This document shows, one piece after another, positions 2,103 to 14,927 of a stretch of 20,502 nt of DNA. The first letter of the stretch is position 1. Every line of letters starts with the position of its first letter. The notes beneath the pieces are model-generated. The model saw nothing but the letters and a program-made list of their open reading frames with translations, did no database searches and was not told where the DNA came from. This DNA comes from a virus, in IMG/VR virus record IMGVR_UViG_3300043427_000489, positions 1-20,502 of that record, one strand, 5' to 3'. Both the position numbers and the translations under genes were made by a program.

Positions 2103-2120
2103 TGTGGACAATGTGGACAA
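2103..2120 (+). repeat. Tandem pair of 9-bp TGTGGACAA repeats
   Basis: Two exact copies abut with no spacer at 2103-2111 and 2112-2120. They are preceded by GGGTCAT at 2084 and 2097. Confidence 0.9.
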
Positions 2121-2149
2121 CAAGTTGCAAGTCGCATGGCCACGCAATG

Positions 2150-2167
2150 TGTGGACAATGTGGACAA
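2150..2167 (+). repeat. Tandem pair of 9-bp TGTGGACAA repeats
   Basis: Two exact abutting copies (2150-2158, 2159-2167). With the inverted pair at 2180-2197 they can form a hairpin: 16 of 18 stem positions pair across a 12-base loop. Confidence 0.9.
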
Positions 2168-2179
2168 CATGAAAACACA

Positions 2180-2197
2180 TTGTCCAACTTGTCCACA
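2180..2197 (-). repeat. Inverted pair of the 9-bp repeat, one copy degenerate
   Basis: TTGTCCAAC (2180-2188, last two positions altered) abuts an exact TTGTCCACA (2189-2197). The orientation is opposite to the preceding pair. Confidence 0.85.
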
Positions 2198-2229
2198 TCT
2201 TTTTGCGTGAGAATTCCAGCGCGGGGATT

Positions 2230-2256
2230 TGTGGACAATGTGGACAACGTGGACTA
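2230..2256 (+). repeat. Three abutting copies of the 9-bp repeat
   Basis: Exact TGTGGACAA copies at 2230-2238 and 2239-2247 are followed without spacer by a degenerate CGTGGACTA at 2248-2256. Confidence 0.9.
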
Positions 2257-2295
2257 TGATTTTAAATTGGTAGCGGACGAGGTGTCATGTTAGCC

Positions 2296-2345
2296 TTACA
2301 CTGTCTATATATACAGTACTATCTACAATTTTAGTTTATATATAT
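2296..2345. other. AT-rich stretch, possible DNA-unwinding element
   Basis: About 50 bases dominated by A and T, including two TATATA-type runs, lie between inverted repeat pairs (2230-2256 and 2349-2366). Origins commonly place such a stretch beside initiator sites. No thermodynamic calculation was done. Confidence 0.4.
2300..2317. promoter_or_regulatory. LexA-like (SOS) operator palindrome
   Basis: The core CTGT-N8-ACAG sits at 2301-2316 with the alternating centre CTATATAT, flanked by A and T to give ACTGT...ACAGT. It differs at two of 20 positions from the classical enterobacterial LexA consensus. Only one base pair breaks the two-fold symmetry. I could not place a clear promoter overlapping it on either strand. 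It might instead act on the origin, or on a promoter I do not recognise. Confidence 0.65.
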
Positions 2346-2348
2346 CCA

Positions 2349-2366
2349 TTGTCCACATTGTCCACA
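2349..2366 (-). repeat. Inverted tandem pair of the 9-bp repeat
   Basis: Two exact abutting TTGTCCACA copies (2349-2357, 2358-2366). Together with the pair at 2230-2247, in opposite orientation, they flank the AT-rich stretch and the LexA-like site almost symmetrically. Confidence 0.9.
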
Positions 2367-2425
2367 TAACCTCCCAGACCGCGTCGTTGTTACGTTTGCG
2401 TGTGGGTCATACAGTGGTCGTTTTA

Positions 2426-2456
2426 TAGTCCACCGATAGTCCACCCATTGTCCACA
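2426..2456 (-). repeat. One exact and two degenerate copies of the 9-bp repeat
   Basis: TAGTCCACC occurs at 2426-2434 and 2437-2445, followed by an exact TTGTCCACA at 2448-2456. The group ends 44 bases before the -35 box of the rightward promoter. Confidence 0.75.
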
Positions 2457-2584: not shown

Positions 2585-2791
2585 ATGAAAAGCAATTCTT
2601 GGAGAAAAGATTATCTAATTGTGTTGTTTGAAGACTACGACAACACATGGCGCGATGTAACCGCGCCCTGCACATTTTTGCAGGCGATCCGATTCGCCCG
2701 CGCTAAGGGTTGGCGTATTGACGACAAACGCGTCCGTTTAGTCACCCTGACCGAATTCGCAACACTTAACCAAAAGGAGCAAACCGCATGA
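2585..2791 (+). CDS. Small hypothetical protein, first gene of early cluster
   Basis: A 68-aa protein that I do not recognise. The N-terminal half is aromatic and acidic (YLIVLFEDYDNTWRDV); the middle is basic (FARAKGWRIDDKRVRLV) with an alternating pattern suggesting a small alpha/beta fold. AAAGGAC precedes the ATG and it is the first gene after the strong promoter, so it should be the most strongly and earliest expressed of the cluster. It overlaps the next gene by 4 bases (ATGA). Early position suggests host interaction or takeover, but the sequence gives no direct evidence. Confidence 0.75.
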   Translation: MKSNSWRKDYLIVLFEDYDNTWRDVTAPCTFLQAIRFARAKGWRIDDKRVRLVTLTEFATLNQKEQTA

Positions 2792-2982
2792 TAAATGAAA
2801 CACAAATTGCACATGAGTGCATCGCTATGAGCCGTGAGTGCAACAGTAGCTGGGCGATATTGGAATACGTAAGAGGCGAGGGCTACCCTTACAAAATGGC
2901 CGTGAATATTGTCACCCGCGCTTTGCGACTGGATGATGATGAAGTCTTCGAGATGCAAGACCGCTACAACGACTGCATCTAA
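2788..2982 (+). CDS. Small hypothetical protein (64 aa)
   Basis: I do not recognise this protein. It is predicted mostly helical, with an acidic C-terminal third (LRLDDDEVFEMQDRYNDC) and three cysteines at 11, 18 and 63. No membrane segment or known motif is seen. A clear AAGGAG lies about 9 bases before the ATG, and the start overlaps the previous stop as ATGA, so it is translationally coupled. The next gene begins 10 bases after its stop. Confidence 0.7.
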   Translation: MINETQIAHECIAMSRECNSSWAILEYVRGEGYPYKMAVNIVTRALRLDDDEVFEMQDRYNDCI

Positions 2983-2992
2983 GGGGCAAACC

Positions 2993-3130
2993 ATGAACCG
3001 CCACACTTTGCACTATATCGACCTGAACCCTGAGCCGGTTCAGGAACCCTCAGACGGCCTAATTATCGCGGGGGCGTTAGCCCTTGTCGTTGCCTTGGCC
3101 TGTGTGATTCTTTTCGCTTTTTCTTTGTAA
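2993..3130 (+). CDS. Small single-pass membrane protein (45 aa)
   Basis: A 45-aa protein with a short polar, proline-containing N-terminus (residues 1-21) and one long hydrophobic helix (about 23-45, LIIAGALALVVALACVILFA) running to the end. A good ribosome site (AAGGGG) precedes the ATG by 6 bases. A longer in-frame opening begins upstream at 2909 but lies inside the preceding gene and lacks a ribosome site. It is likely inserted in the inner membrane with the N-terminus on one side. Small membrane proteins in early phage clusters can alter host membrane functions or exclude other phages; no such role can be read here. Confidence 0.7.
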   Translation: MNRHTLHYIDLNPEPVQEPSDGLIIAGALALVVALACVILFAFSL

Positions 3131-3141
3131 GGACTTAAACC

Positions 3142-3447
3142 ATGAACGACAACAAATATAACGGCTGGACAAATTACGCCACATGGCGCGTCAACTTGGA
3201 AATTTTTGACGGCTTCGACCCGTTCGACAATTTCTCAGACGATCAAGCGAATATGATGGACTGGCTCGCGGATTACCTCAAAGAGTACGCCGAGGAGATC
3301 ATTGAGCAGACAAGTTCTGAGGGTTTAGCGCGCGACTACGCTTTGGCGTTTTTGCAAGAAGTCAACTGGCGCGAAATCGCCGAGCACATGTTTCTCGACT
3401 ACGCCGACGACGAAGACATCGCCGCATACAAGGAGGCGACAGCATGA
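3142..3447 (+). CDS. Conserved phage/plasmid protein, 'NGWTNY-TW' family
   Basis: This 101-aa protein starts with YNGWTNYATWRVNLE (about residues 6-20), a signature of a widespread family of unknown function in phages and plasmids. From memory it is annotated DUF7249, but the number should be checked. The rest is strongly acidic and helical with several tryptophans. AAGGAC precedes the ATG. Its end overlaps the next gene by 4 bases. The acidity could suit a DNA-mimic or binding protein, but that is speculation. It is the only member of the small-gene cluster whose family I recognise. Confidence 0.8.
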   Translation: MNDNKYNGWTNYATWRVNLEIFDGFDPFDNFSDDQANMMDWLADYLKEYAEEIIEQTSSEGLARDYALAFLQEVNWREIAEHMFLDYADDEDIAAYKEATA

Positions 3448-3668
3448 CACCCTCAGAACAAGCATTTATCAAAGCATATAGCCGATGTGTCGCGGTTGCG
3501 TCTGACTGTGACCTTGAATACTTTTTGGCCAACAAAGAGCGCGCGCAAAATGTTGACTATTACGAGGAGAAAAAGATCGCAGATGAGATTGAATATTGGA
3601 CACACATTGAAGACGCGTGGCTGATGTGGCTTGAGGCCATCGACTTTGCAAAGGAGACGACAGAATGA
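3444..3668 (+). CDS. Small hypothetical protein (74 aa)
   Basis: I do not recognise this acidic, mainly helical protein (TPSEQAFIKAYSRC at the start, tryptophan-rich IEYWTHIEDAWLMWLEAIDF near the end). GGAGG lies about 7 bases before the ATG, and its start and stop both overlap neighbours by 4 bases. Its leader (AAGGAGGCGACAGC before ATG) closely resembles that of the next gene (AAGGAGACGACAGA), suggesting a repeated or shuffled ribosome-site cassette. Confidence 0.7.
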   Translation: MTPSEQAFIKAYSRCVAVASDCDLEYFLANKERAQNVDYYEEKKIADEIEYWTHIEDAWLMWLEAIDFAKETTE

Positions 3669-3829
3669 CCAAAGACCAAATTCACGCGCTGAAAATGGCG
3701 TTATTTCTCGCTCAATATTTTGTCGAAGAACATCAGGACGATGACACTGAGCAATGGCACATAGACAACGAGCGCGTCATATTGGCGCGGGCGATCTTGC
3801 AAGAGTTGGAGGCAACATGCACGACATAA
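3665..3829 (+). CDS. Small hypothetical protein (54 aa)
   Basis: A 54-aa open frame that begins within the stop of the previous gene (ATGA) after AAGGAG. It reads MTKDQIHALKMALFLAQYF, then an acidic middle and a helical end, TAA at 3827. I do not recognise it. The ordered helix and acidic patch resemble its neighbours in composition, and it fills the space to the next gene, which it overlaps by 13 bases. Both ends are set by good ribosome sites, so it is likely real. Confidence 0.65.
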   Translation: MTKDQIHALKMALFLAQYFVEEHQDDDTEQWHIDNERVILARAILQELEATCTT

Positions 3830-3969
3830 AAGACCAGATCGACATTGTTTGGGCTGCTTTGGAGGCTTACCGCGCTGACCTGATACCCGAAGGTGACGAG
3901 CAATTTGACGAAATTTGGAACGATATTTGCACCGCAATGGCGGTCATTGAGGAGGACTTACAAAAATGA
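3817..3969 (+). CDS. Small acidic hypothetical protein (50 aa)
   Basis: A 50-aa protein starting at an ATG four bases after GGAGG; the in-frame upstream ATG at 3754 lies deep inside the previous gene without a ribosome site. It is helical and very acidic (EGDEQFDEIWNDI, then VIEEDLQK). No family is recognised. Overlaps the previous gene by 13 bases and the next by 4. Confidence 0.65.
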   Translation: MHDIKDQIDIVWAALEAYRADLIPEGDEQFDEIWNDICTAMAVIEEDLQK

Positions 3970-4184
3970 CCTCACACTACGACCGCACAACAGTGACCTT
4001 TCACAGGGGCAATGCCTTTGCCCCCGAGGGCATCACGCCCGAGCCGTTTGCCACGCTCACGATCAACGACCTCGTTGAGCGCGAATTAATCGACGCCATT
4101 TGCGAACTCATACGCACGCACGTCAACGAGACGCACATGGACTTCTGCAACATCAAATTAACTTCTGAAGACTGGGACTGCTAA
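3966..4184 (+). CDS. Small hypothetical protein (72 aa)
   Basis: This 72-aa protein is not recognised. Its first half is polar with beta character (YDRTTVTFHRGNAFAPEG), the second is helical (LVERELIDAICELIRTHV), and it ends in an acidic WDC tail. GGAGG lies about 9 bases upstream and the start is ATGA-coupled to the previous gene. One base separates its stop from the next ATG. Confidence 0.7.
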   Translation: MTSHYDRTTVTFHRGNAFAPEGITPEPFATLTINDLVERELIDAICELIRTHVNETHMDFCNIKLTSEDWDC

Positions 4185-4185
4185 C

Positions 4186-4383
4186 ATGATCGACTTAACA
4201 AAATTACCCCCTGCTGATGCTGAGCGCATTGCGTACGCTGAAGGCTTTACAGGTGTGGGCGACCTGTTTGCCCGCGTTTCAGACCTAGAACACGCCCTGT
4301 GTGTCCTTATTGACGCCATTGAGGAGGGCGACCCCCAAAAGATCGCTGATGTGGTTATGCAAGTGCAGGAGGTGTTGGAATGA
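4186..4383 (+). CDS. Small acidic hypothetical protein (65 aa)
   Basis: A 65-aa protein that I do not recognise, with a strongly acidic helical C-terminal half containing heptad-like leucines and valines (LEHALCVLIDAIEEGD, then IADVVMQVQEVLE), which could form a short coiled coil. Its start follows the previous stop by one base and has only a weak ribosome site, so coupling is likely. Its stop overlaps the next ATG. Confidence 0.65.
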   Translation: MIDLTKLPPADAERIAYAEGFTGVGDLFARVSDLEHALCVLIDAIEEGDPQKIADVVMQVQEVLE

Positions 4384-4571
4384 ATCCAGTCATGCAAGAA
4401 GCCCTCGCGCCTTTCAGACCCCTCACTTATACCGAGCATTATTACGTTGACCTTGGTTATCGGCACGAATTAGGCAAGTCCGAAGATTATGAATACAAAC
4501 AAGCGCAGGCCGAAGGCGCGGAGGCGCGCCGGCTTATGCAACGCGGCGCGATGGAGGCCATGATGCGATGA
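4380..4571 (+). CDS. Small hypothetical protein (63 aa)
   Basis: A 63-aa protein, not recognised. A tyrosine-rich middle (YTEHYYVDLGYRHELG, about 17-32) is followed by an alanine/glutamate/arginine-rich helix ending in methionines and arginine. GGAGG about 8 bases upstream and ATGA overlap with the preceding gene support the start. Its stop overlaps the ATG of a 19-codon frame. Confidence 0.65.
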   Translation: MNPVMQEALAPFRPLTYTEHYYVDLGYRHELGKSEDYEYKQAQAEGAEARRLMQRGAMEAMMR

Positions 4572-4663: not shown

Positions 4664-4892
4664 AACTTATAAAAACAGGCGTTCGCTCGCCCATGTACGC
4701 GCCAAGAATATTAAATTCAAAATATTCAACGGCCTCCTCCTCGGGCATGTCACGCGCTAAGATTTCAATAATTTTATGTATGTCATAGGCCACGACTGGC
4801 TCCATGCCCGCGCGCTCGGCTATGCCAATGATTGCGTCATCGAAGCCATCTGCAAATAGCAGACCTTCACAGTCTAAATCTTCTCTATTCAT
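4662..4892 (-). CDS. Conserved phage hypothetical protein (76 aa)
   Basis: A 76-aa acidic protein of a type I have seen in many environmental phages, always small and unnamed, with the pattern LLFADGFDDAIIG, VAYD..KIIEIL, DMPEEEAVEYFEFN and a GAYMGE.TP end. Function is unknown. It is the last gene of the leftward replication unit: its ATG overlaps the primase-helicase stop (ATGA), and its stop lies in the T run of the convergent terminator. Location suggests a replication accessory or regulator, but nothing in the sequence proves it. Confidence 0.8.
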   Translation of the reverse strand: MNREDLDCEGLLFADGFDDAIIGIAERAGMEPVVAYDIHKIIEILARDMPEEEAVEYFEFNILGAYMGERTPVFIS

Positions 4893-7177
4893 TTGACTAA
4901 CCTCACAGATAAGGGCGCCGGCACGTCTTCAACGAGGCGCCTCAATTCTGACTTGCTCACATCCCGCATCTCAGGCGCGCAGAAGATGTGCTTTTTAGAG
5001 TCAAACTCACGCGACTTCAAACGGCCACAATCCACCCAACCAGCCTCCTTGAGCGCGTGCAACAAGGCGGGCTGAGGCACTTTCACGCCACTAGGGGCTG
5101 CCCCCGCCAGACGGTCACAAAGCGCGTGAAAGGGCGACGCCACCACGCCCTTAGAAAACTCACCCATACGAGCGCGCATAAGTTCGACAAGGTAACTTTC
5201 TGCCATGCTCATGCCATGCTCGACTAGGTTCATTTTAAACTCGGTCATCATCGGAGGCGCGCCAGCATTGAAGGCAGTCACATCACGCGATGCAAGCCAG
5301 CCACCAATGGCCTCAAACCCGCCCGACTTGTACCATTTCCACATCTTCTCAGCAGACGCAGAAGTCATGCGCGGGGCGTGCGACCATACGCAAAACCACC
5401 GGCGATCCTGCGAGTCAAGCGAGATGGGCACTGGATCGTTAGAGAACGCAAGAACAAAAACCCGATTGGCCATCTGATAAGGGTGCAGACCCTTGCGGTT
5501 CACTGTCAACATTTCAGGCGGCGCGGCAATAATTGGCTTGAGTTTATTGGCCAAGGCGCGGCGTTCTTTGGCGTCCGGTTCCTTTAATTCGTTCAAAATC
5601 AAAATTTCAGATTCAAGGGCGTAGCCAAACTGGCTGCTCATGGTGTCATTATCTAGCAGGCCACGGTTTTTAAGGTGTTCACCACACACTGCCCAGATGA
5701 ACGGCGCCCACATGGTGTCCTTGCCTGAGCCTTGGTCGCCGCCATGCAGCACGGCGTGATTGATCTTGACCTCGGGGTGTTGCACCTTGAACGCCATCAC
5801 GTCAAAAATATGCTCAAGTTCATCTGCGTCAGGGACAAGTGTTCGGCAATGCTCAAGCCAAGGGGTTATGTCACCCGACCCAAACGAGGGGCGCGCATCG
5901 CGCCAGCGGTTGCCATACAGGTCGCCATCACGGGCGACAATGACTGACTCACCTGCGGCATACGTAATTCCCACAAGCGCCTTCGCGCCATGCTTTTGGC
6001 GGTTCTCGTCAAAGCAGATTGACGCCTCGACCTTGGGGTTCTTGCCGTGGATTGAGTTGCACTTGATGTGACGAAACAGGGCGTTGAATGTGCTTCTGCT
6101 GACTTCACGTCTGTCTTGCATATCAAAATAGGACTCATCGTCTTGAATGTACGCAAAGCGCTCATACCACTGCGCCTTCTCAATGCGGCCAAGTTCCTTG
6201 CGCTCAACCTCGGCAATCACGGCTGCCGCGTCGTCTGTGAACATGTCAGTGGGCGTCAGCTTAGACAAGGCTTGATCCATGGCCAAGGTCAGCAGTTCGT
6301 CACGCAAGCCGTGCGCATGCTTGGGACCGCCATTGTTTGACACCCACTCCAAAAACGCGCTGGAGCCAAAGTCAACGCAGTGGCTATGCAGGCAGCAGTA
6401 GGCGCGGTTGGCGGGCATGTAGCGGCCTTCTGGGTTGCCGTCAGTATGCTCGGCTGAATTGGGGCACATCACGCCAGCCCAGCCCTCTTGGTTGGGTTTA
6501 GACAGTAGCAAACCTTGGCCAGACAGCCACGCCATCACATCATCGGCGCCATCGTCTGACAAGCGGATCGGTTTAAAGCCAACTGAGTCAGCAGGCGCGG
6601 GCACCACACCTAACGCGTCACAAATTTGGTCAAGCGTAAAGTCACGCGATGGGTGAAACTCAACCAGCTTGGCGGCGAAGTTATTGCGGTCAGGCTTCAA
6701 GTTGATCGAGCCGGGTATGCGAAAATTGCGCACGGCGTTGATGGCGCCCTTGTCGGTGTAGCCAGCATCGGCGATGGCTTTGATGGCGGCGCTGAAGTCG
6801 CCCTTGGTGGGCTGCTCAGAGAAAGCGTAGCCCCACTGGAACGAACCCTCAGACGTCTCAATCTTCCACGTCGGCTCAAGTGGTGGGATGGCCGCCTTAG
6901 TACCCACATCGTCCAGCACCATGACCAGCACATATTCACAGTTGGCGGCGCTGGCTGACACGTGACCATCTTTGAAGCGGTCGATGATAAAGCTGGCCGT
7001 GTTGCCGTAGATTGCCCAGTCGTCTTTGATGCGTGCGTTAGGCAACATAGCAGGCCATGTGCATTTGATCGCGCCATCTGCGTGGAATTGCAGTTCTTTG
7101 CCAATGGGCTTCTGACGCACAATTAGCGCAGTCTCGCCCTCGGGCGCCAAAGAAATTAAAAAATCAAGAAAGTTCAT
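4889..7177 (-). CDS. Primase-SF3 helicase-type replication protein
   Basis: A 762-aa replication protein. Residues about 50-190 look like an archaeo-eukaryotic-type primase or RepB-like region (VLVMVLDDVGTK near 83-94, KIETSEGSFQWGY near 105-117, INAVRNFRIPGSINLK near 146-161). A putative zinc-binding cluster, C238/H244 with C261-C262 and H264/C267, lies between the two halves. The ATPase is superfamily 3-like: Walker A GGDQGSGKD (479-487), Walker B ending in E530, a sensor strand VLAFSND with N580, and an arginine finger in DRRW (591-594). The family primes and unwinds DNA at the phage fork. It overlaps neighbours by 4 bases on both sides. No phage symbol can be assigned safely. Confidence 0.85.
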   Translation of the reverse strand: MNFLDFLISLAPEGETALIVRQKPIGKELQFHADGAIKCTWPAMLPNARIKDDWAIYGNTASFIIDRFKDGHVSASAANCEYVLVMVLDDVGTKAAIPPLEPTWKIETSEGSFQWGYAFSEQPTKGDFSAAIKAIADAGYTDKGAINAVRNFRIPGSINLKPDRNNFAAKLVEFHPSRDFTLDQICDALGVVPAPADSVGFKPIRLSDDGADDVMAWLSGQGLLLSKPNQEGWAGVMCPNSAEHTDGNPEGRYMPANRAYCCLHSHCVDFGSSAFLEWVSNNGGPKHAHGLRDELLTLAMDQALSKLTPTDMFTDDAAAVIAEVERKELGRIEKAQWYERFAYIQDDESYFDMQDRREVSRSTFNALFRHIKCNSIHGKNPKVEASICFDENRQKHGAKALVGITYAAGESVIVARDGDLYGNRWRDARPSFGSGDITPWLEHCRTLVPDADELEHIFDVMAFKVQHPEVKINHAVLHGGDQGSGKDTMWAPFIWAVCGEHLKNRGLLDNDTMSSQFGYALESEILILNELKEPDAKERRALANKLKPIIAAPPEMLTVNRKGLHPYQMANRVFVLAFSNDPVPISLDSQDRRWFCVWSHAPRMTSASAEKMWKWYKSGGFEAIGGWLASRDVTAFNAGAPPMMTEFKMNLVEHGMSMAESYLVELMRARMGEFSKGVVASPFHALCDRLAGAAPSGVKVPQPALLHALKEAGWVDCGRLKSREFDSKKHIFCAPEMRDVSKSELRRLVEDVPAPLSVRLVK

Positions 7178-7557
7178 TGTGTTGCCTTCATTTTGTTGTG
7201 TTTAACTCTGTCTGCACCGTTTTCAACTACGGTTCCGTAAGCCAAGTTGAACAGCGTGTTGTTTGCTTTGTCACCATCAAGGTGACGTATCTCACCGCGA
7301 TCTTCTGTCACTGGACGCGCGCCTACAAACGCTTGCAATACCAGCGCATGTACATAAAAAGTTTTTGGAGGGTAACCCCGCGCCAGCTTTACGCTTAGAT
7401 AGCCATTTGTTACAAATTGTTTTAGCCTACGACCGGCGTACGACGTTCTTTTGTGACGGCCATACTCCACAACCCGTGGTAACGAACGCACGTTCCCATA
7501 GTTGCTAATCTCATAATACGTTTCAAAATTTGGCACTGCGCGCCATTCTTCTGTCAT
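7174..7557 (-). CDS. Free-standing HNH homing endonuclease (NUMOD4-HNH)
   Basis: A 127-aa protein with an N-terminal NUMOD4 module (EEWRAVPNFETYYEISNYG, about residues 3-21, then NVRSL) and a C-terminal HNH core: VH near 88, IRHLDGDKANN near 109-119 and NLAYGT near 123-128 as counted by eye. All key His and Asn residues are present, so it looks active. It would nick or cut a target and copy itself into phages lacking it. I chose the ATG at 7557: it overlaps the previous stop (ATGA) and follows AAGGGG. Its stop overlaps the primase ATG in the same way. No intron or intein signs are visible in the neighbours. Confidence 0.88.
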   Translation of the reverse strand: MTEEWRAVPNFETYYEISNYGNVRSLPRVVEYGRHKRTSYAGRRLKQFVTNGYLSVKLARGYPPKTFYVHALVLQAFVGARPVTEDRGEIRHLDGDKANNTLFNLAYGTVVENGADRVKHNKMKATQ

Positions 7558-7808
7558 GTCAACCCCTTTGCTCGGATGTAGGCAGTTAAATCTTTTAAAT
7601 AGTTTGATGCGCGATATGCGTACAATTCGCTCAACATCTCTTGACACAAGGCACGTAAACGCTCTATTTCTTTTTGATCATTTTGTGCTAACAGCTTGGC
7701 AAAGGCCTCAATGTTTTCAGTTCCAATTAAAGCCAACTGATTAAAGTCTTTATGTATCGGGATGGCATTAGCTTGTTTAGCCAGATCCATAATTTCATTT
7801 TGTGTCAT
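7554..7808 (-). CDS. Conserved phage hypothetical protein (84 aa)
   Basis: An 84-aa helical protein of a common small phage type: an N-terminal NEIMDLAKQA segment, a central GTENIEAFAKLL segment and a coiled-coil-like EIERLRALCQEML stretch (about 47-62). Function is unknown. AAAGGG precedes the ATG. It starts one base after the DNA polymerase stop and its stop overlaps the HNH gene by 4 bases. Relatives in other phages are often found among replication genes. Confidence 0.78.
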   Translation of the reverse strand: MTQNEIMDLAKQANAIPIHKDFNQLALIGTENIEAFAKLLAQNDQKEIERLRALCQEMLSELYAYRASNYLKDLTAYIRAKGLT

Positions 7809-14465: not shown

Positions 14466-14927
14466 GCGGCGCTCGTCTATGCGGCGGGTTTGCAAGCCTC
14501 TAAGGACTTTTCCAGCCGCCATGCAATACTTCAGAAGTTCTTCGGCGGCGCCCTCTTTGTCGCCCCGAAGCAACTTCTGACGAAGCGTCGAACGCTGGAG
14601 TGTTCCCAAACCGACGTTAAAACTAAAGCTGACGAGGCCGTCAAACATACCTTGTGTAAGAGGGACAGGGCAGAAGCGCTCCACTCCACGCTCAAAACGG
14701 TCAAGATCAGCGCGAAGAATTCCATCTACTTCTTCTTTGGTAAACGTCCGGCTATCTTCAGGATGAAGCGCGTAAGCGCCCCTTTCAGCCAATAGTATTT
14801 TGATTTGATTCGGATAAAGAACATGGCCAACTCCTATTGTCCACAGCTTTGCTGGGCACTGGTATGGTTTGAATCGAACACCCTCATGGTGCTTGATCAT
14901 CTCAATGGCTTTGGGCGAGACGTTCAT
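14451..14927 (-). CDS. Endolysin, GH24 lysozyme (T4/P21 type)
   Basis: A 158-aa muramidase that cuts peptidoglycan glycan chains at lysis. The catalytic pattern E-x8-(D/C)-x5-T is met by E15 (HHEG), C24 (QCPAK) and T30 (WTIGVGH). GLVSFSFNVGLG (about 96-107) and a C-terminal RRIDERRLFL are typical of the family. Cysteine replaces aspartate at the second catalytic position, a known variant. No signal peptide or anchor is seen, so it should need a holin to leave the cytoplasm. Its ATG overlaps the holin-like gene stop (ATGA) and has a weak ribosome site. It overlaps the convergent gene 14304-14465 by 15 bases with no terminator visible between. Confidence 0.93.
   Translation of the reverse strand: MNVSPKAIEMIKHHEGVRFKPYQCPAKLWTIGVGHVLYPNQIKILLAERGAYALHPEDSRTFTKEEVDGILRADLDRFERGVERFCPVPLTQGMFDGLVSFSFNVGLGTLQRSTLRQKLLRGDKEGAAEELLKYCMAAGKVLRGLQTRRIDERRLFLS

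Follow-up and report, generated by a model that had tools for sequence, protein, structure and literature searches.

Variable 9-bp iterons upstream of terS form the probable replication origin of a freshwater phage

The stretch of DNA analysed here (the window) is a 20.5-kb virus record, most likely a fragment. It encodes large and small terminase-like proteins, a DUF5906 primase-helicase, a family A polymerase, a PD-(D/E)XK nuclease, an SNF2-type helicase, and a lysozyme. A repeat array occupies the gap between the leftward small terminase-like gene (terS; 1521–1949, − strand), which served as the anchor for finding relatives, and a rightward early operon of small genes (2585–4571, + strand). 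The gene of the 762-residue primase-helicase (4889–7177, − strand) is located about 2.4 kb from the array; DUF5906, profile match, Foldseek, and covariation make its product the proposed origin-binding initiator. Between the primase and polymerase genes, a 157-residue ORF (7174–7647), interpreted by eye as a homing endonuclease of the HNH type, has no match in any of the 22 related records with which the window proteins were compared, and is probably a recent insertion.

Among the relatives, the one with the best annotation is a 38.8-kb environmental podovirus record from Manatee Spring, whose portal and coat proteins are P22-like; the phage of the window is a freshwater, podovirus-like phage. 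IMG/VR contains hundreds of relatives, the longest being 35–40 kb and many being fragments. A prophage search of sequenced genomes for the host gave only short MAG contigs, several of them labelled Betaproteobacteria or Rhodoferax. Directly upstream of terS, a strongly conserved block (1980–2058) carries two AGGGCC-type repeats followed by AACAATTTTTT in the terS orientation. This block is found in nearly all the relatives displayed and is a candidate packaging site or terminator.

Counted over the 20.5-kb window, the 9-mer TTGTCCACA/TGTGGACAA occurs ten times within the 354 bp of the array (2103–2456) and once outside it, in the lysozyme gene (14837–14845). The original prediction had placed all ten copies of the array correctly. 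When up to one mismatch is allowed, there are 14 matches versus 5.6 expected, and none of 100 shuffles got to 14. The predicted head-to-tail pairs without spacer are present as well, four of them exact (starting at 2103, 2150, and 2230 on the − strand and at 2349 on the + strand). Degenerate partners lengthen the exact pairs and add a fifth, and ATTGTCCAC is the better reading of the conserved tandem unit.

The units flank an AT-rich core of about 90 bp (2258–2347), which separates inverted iteron blocks and is a candidate DNA unwinding element. To the left of the core, the iterons are mostly on the − strand: two exact dimers (2103–2120, composed of 2 × TTGTCCACA, and 2150–2167) and a run of three units at its border (2230–2257). 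The exception is the fifth pair (2179–2197), which lies on the + strand and has a degenerate first unit (ATTGTCCAA-CTTGTCCAC). To the right, a dimer at the border (2348–2366) and a run of three units with an 11-bp pitch (2425–2456; two ATAGTCCAC and one ATTGTCCAC) are both on the + strand. The AT content is 67% in 2249–2347, versus 47–54% in three stretches of 1950–2248 and 50% in 2348–2456. The core contains a LexA-like palindrome (CTG-N10-CAG, 2301–2316), which is found in the same gap in 18 of 79 relatives. A promoter-like site for the rightward early operon (TTGACA-16-TACAAT, 2501–2528, + strand) is a consensus match only, at 11 of 12 positions.

Among 174 distinct regions upstream of terS, about 140 carry an array at the same place, made of class-specific words. 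About half of the regions carry ATTGTCCAC, a share that is inflated because part of the set was retrieved by a search for the window's own word, and about a sixth carry ATGACCCAA; ATGACTCAC, ATGACCCAC, ATTGCCTAC, ATAGCCAAC, ATAGCCCAC, and others are found in the rest. We refer to the class of the window's word as class A and to the ATGACCCAA class as class B. The pitch is 9 bp in these two commonest classes and 10 bp in the ATGACTCAC class. A check of 13 genomes placed almost every copy of a genome's own word inside one 700-bp stretch. The word switches even between close relatives: the TerS of L008 is 100% identical to that of the window, yet its word is ATGACCCAA. Upstream of terS in L063, a mixed array of ATGACCCAA plus ATGGTCCAC/ATTGTCCAC units stands next to a class B primase and has possibly been caught in transition.

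The arrangement around the core is conserved, too. Of 79 regions of classes A and B, 66 have an AT-rich gap with diverging dimers on its two sides. The gap lengths, 90 bp in the window, cluster near 88, 98, 107, and 119 bp (90 distinct gap sequences, all classes). Their periodicity (vector length 0.66 at 10 to 10.5 bp; 0.52 for 43 sequence clusters) is supportive only, because the period was chosen post hoc and related sequences are not independent. GC skew, which the original prediction had offered as a guide to the replication start, does not consistently point to the array.

The family profile of the primase-helicase matches the helicase region (CTR) of NrS-1 polymerase (2.8e-10), its nearest PDB relative by sequence. 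Foldseek of a full-length model of moderate confidence (mean pLDDT 64) also retrieves NrS-1 CTR, again as the nearest PDB relative (8.5e-11), in addition to PriRep1 with dsDNA and the SaPI5 primase-helicase. Both searches identify a hexameric-type SF3/D5-like helicase domain. A further Foldseek match, to the AEP domain of S-2L PrimPol (1.6e-5; target TM 0.65), indicates a predicted AEP primase domain in the same chain. The C-terminal domain (residues about 640–752; 4922–5260, − strand) is winged-helix-like in the predicted structures. In a second model, of residues 588–762, two helices (683–693 and 702–711) are followed by a hairpin with strands 715–720 and 729–733, so residues 721–728 make the hairpin loop. 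The helix-helix-hairpin layout falls in a confident part of the model. The PDB matches of this model include several winged-helix proteins, all weak and none under E 0.001. From the topology, we predict that the C-terminal domain is a winged helix with the loop as its wing.

Across the relatives, the repeat word tracks one protein, the phage primase-helicase, through its C-terminus. The window's primase-helicase is 95–100% identical to that of G001 at residues 1–280 and 67–70% identical at residues 601–640 and 721–760; among members sharing the window's word, identity stays high at the C-terminal stretches. On trees of 68 sequences, for which the minimum is 6, the word class changes 9 times with primase residues 601–762 and with 441–600, 12 times with 281–440, 17 times with 1–270, and 23 times with TerS. 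On the TerL tree (62 sequences) it changes 24 times. Word distance correlates best with sequence distance over primase residues 640–762 (0.48 for 113 deduplicated pairs), above any other region. With TerS and the primase N-terminus controlled for, the partial correlation of the word with primase 601–762 is 0.32, a value reached in none of 500 permutations, and those of the reverse controls are 0.06 and −0.12. Other candidate binders were rejected: no small early gene family is common to all class A members, and TerS can be identical where words differ. Likewise, none of the 19 window proteins scanned has a Pfam match to the Rep_3-type initiators of iteron plasmid (Rep_3/RepA) origins.

Within the C-terminal domain, the covariation is most distinct at the wing loop (residues 720–731, LKSREFDSKKHI; 4985–5020, − strand), where K721, R723, and D726 are candidates for specificity. 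Seven columns tell classes A and B apart in all members, four of them at 720–726. Residues 721, 723, and 726 are K, R, and D in 30 of 30 class A proteins and A, G, and Q/P in 17 of 17 class B proteins; they are K, R, and T in the 10-bp-pitch class and mostly A, R, and Q in the GCCAAC class. Residue 726 ranks first in mutual information among all 762 primase columns (1.99, versus 1.3 for the best TerS column), and some primase columns elsewhere score too, as expected from shared descent. The top pairs after correction are residue 726 with position 5 of the word, 721 with position 5, and 721 with position 7. In pairs that are independent on trees of other regions, D726 accompanies T at position 5 in about 7 of 8 and 9 of 10 cases and never the opposite, and G723 accompanies A at position 9 in 6 of 6; for Q726 with A at position 7, the pairs are too few to decide.

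The expected word–wing pairings were fixed in writing before new loci were retrieved. The predicted word is the commonest in 35 of 49 scorable new loci, which are not a random sample because they were picked by likeness to one class E protein. By wing, the score is 8 of 11 for KSRxxD, 25 of 36 for ASRxxQ, and 2 of 2 for ASRxxI. Several new loci are known contigs under another locus id, and the score is 31 of 43 when the duplicates recognisable by contig name are removed. The 11 exceptions among the 36 ASRxxQ proteins adjoin arrays that are dominated by other words and are mixed; therefore, residues outside the wing count too, and a strict code of wing residues is rejected. We propose, from the covariation, that the wing loop (721–726) reads the variable middle of the word. 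Two further loci bear on the classes. L352 has a new word upstream of terS, ATAGCCGAC, with the wing SSREFQ, and represents a further class. The 4.6-kb contig L016 combines a class B array with a class C wing, which breaks the pairing, and may be a chimeric assembly or a fresh recombinant.

Taken together, the array is most probably the vegetative replication origin of the phage, recognised by the C-terminus of its own primase-helicase. The window's word is one base off the DnaA box TTATCCACA, and in some high-GC bacteria TTGTCCACA itself serves as a DnaA box. Both points favour reading the array as a group of boxes for host DnaA, or as a decoy that titrates it. However, we consider this very unlikely. 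None of TTATCCACA, TTTTCCACA, and TTCTCCACA occurs within the window, which has no canonical DnaA box, and the window's word neither matches the box nor is kept as a box in relatives. Nearly identical genomes carry AATGACCCA, ATAGCCAAC, or ATGACTCAC in the same array, and the change of word follows the phage primase and, so far as visible, does not follow the host. The words of the relatives share roughly the form ATNRYYNAC, to which the DnaA box also conforms; therefore, its likeness to the window's word is incidental, as also follows from most words not being DnaA boxes and from the different word next to an identical TerS. In addition, neither the window (0 of 1) nor the related records (0 of 32) encode a protein with DnaA domain IV, and on these grounds the DnaA reading was rejected. 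The original prediction had left open a phage-encoded initiator and an array that serves host DnaA as a decoy or is adapted to it; the former is favoured by the covariation and the latter is disfavoured. A distant relative (L007, MW202483), whose array at the same place is made of TGTTTACAT-like words, encodes a stand-alone DnaA domain IV protein (PF08299, 1.1e-17) in its early operon (31423–31719).

The position of the array between divergent genes, its overlap with promoter-like sites, and the LexA-like palindrome within it would suit a transcription operator to which the primase or an early protein binds and which has no role in replication start. We consider this improbable, since the protein that covaries with the word is a primase-helicase, no small early family is shared by all class A members, and inverted blocks set in helical register on either side of an AT-rich core suit an origin; dual use as origin and operator is possible. 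A different concern is that the word follows the primase C-terminus merely through genomic closeness and joint recombination, the two being about 2.4 kb apart with class-linked small genes between them. This is rather less likely still. The intervening e7 and e9 fit worse (5 and 6 changes) than the farther primase C-terminus (2 changes on the same sets, the minimum), residues 1–270 and 601–762 of one gene differ sharply, the signal is concentrated on wing residues, and wing and word repeatedly change together on trees of other regions. Finally, a partition or packaging site (pac/cos) might be expected immediately upstream of terS, where the array lies, but the differing words of the window and L008 accompany identical TerS proteins and the packaging-like block is a separate element closer to terS, which makes this the least probable explanation.

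For the favoured origin, we propose the following mechanism. The winged-helix-like C-terminal domain of the primase-helicase would bind the tandem 9-bp iterons, with a specificity that we infer from the covariation. The oppositely oriented blocks flanking the AT-rich core, as observed, would cause two helicase rings to be loaded in opposite orientation. The core would melt after loading on both sides, and the N-terminal primase would prime both forks.

It is also plausible, at slightly under an even chance, that the relatives represent one allelic series with six to eight or more mutually distinct origin specificities, in which the array and the primase C-terminus are exchanged together between near-identical genomes and which can be read from a few wing residues. 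If so, the series would be the phage counterpart of plasmid incompatibility groups, and origin diversity would be upheld by competition at the origin from co-infecting phages, satellites, or origin-directed nucleases. A handful of known cases illustrate how self-loading phage initiators recognise an origin. Here, the word and a few amino acids change together, an unusually readable protein–DNA recognition pairing; there are dozens of natural protein–origin variant pairs, and therefore specificity residues can be named and tested in vitro. Why near-identical phages change their origin word is a question that the satellite and anti-satellite literature makes testable (PMC8263062).

Our literature search found no paper uniting freshwater phage, primase, iterons, and origin, and the comparison is with individual systems. 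Like NrS-1 primase-polymerase, the protein combines a primase and a hexameric helicase in one chain. The N-terminal region of the NrS-1 enzyme reads an 8-nt site, TTTGGTTA, as single strand in primer synthesis (PMC8718748). There are only two copies of this site per genome (PMC7102993) and, unlike the repeats here, they form no array. On the opposite strand, words of our array (TTTGGGTCA, TGTGGACAA, and GTGAGTCAT) are similar to the priming sites of NrS-1, TTTGGTTA and GTGG/GTGA (PMC8718748); by analogy, the array might double as a priming template. Clusters of DnaA boxes likewise consist of 9-bp words, one base apart from the word in the window, but the words of the relatives are not DnaA boxes. 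In the PLE satellites of Vibrio, the DNA-binding domain of the initiator RepA covaries with the iterons of the origin; the two are exchanged as modules, and an origin-directed nuclease has been proposed to drive this exchange (PMC8263062). PLE differs in that RepA belongs to the RepA_N family and is not a primase-helicase, with three semi-palindromic repeats of about 30 bp and two module types. Phage P4 alpha with ori1/crr is a close known system, although the P4 repeats and their layout differ from those of our array. By analogy, the array is best read as an origin recognised by a self-loading primase-helicase, of the SaPI Rep/ori type. According to a passage of PMC7581432 that cites Ubeda 2007, the helicase C-terminal domain of SaPI Rep and of SCCmec Cch2 recognises short iterons, and the origin is near its own gene. 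The likeness extends to the fold, as the SaPI5 primase-helicase and PriRep1 are fold matches of the window protein. Unlike SaPI and SCCmec, the system here belongs to a whole tailed phage from freshwater metagenomes, its array lies 2.4 kb from the initiator gene instead of directly beside it, and its back-to-back 9-bp words form 18-bp units with a long series of alternative words.
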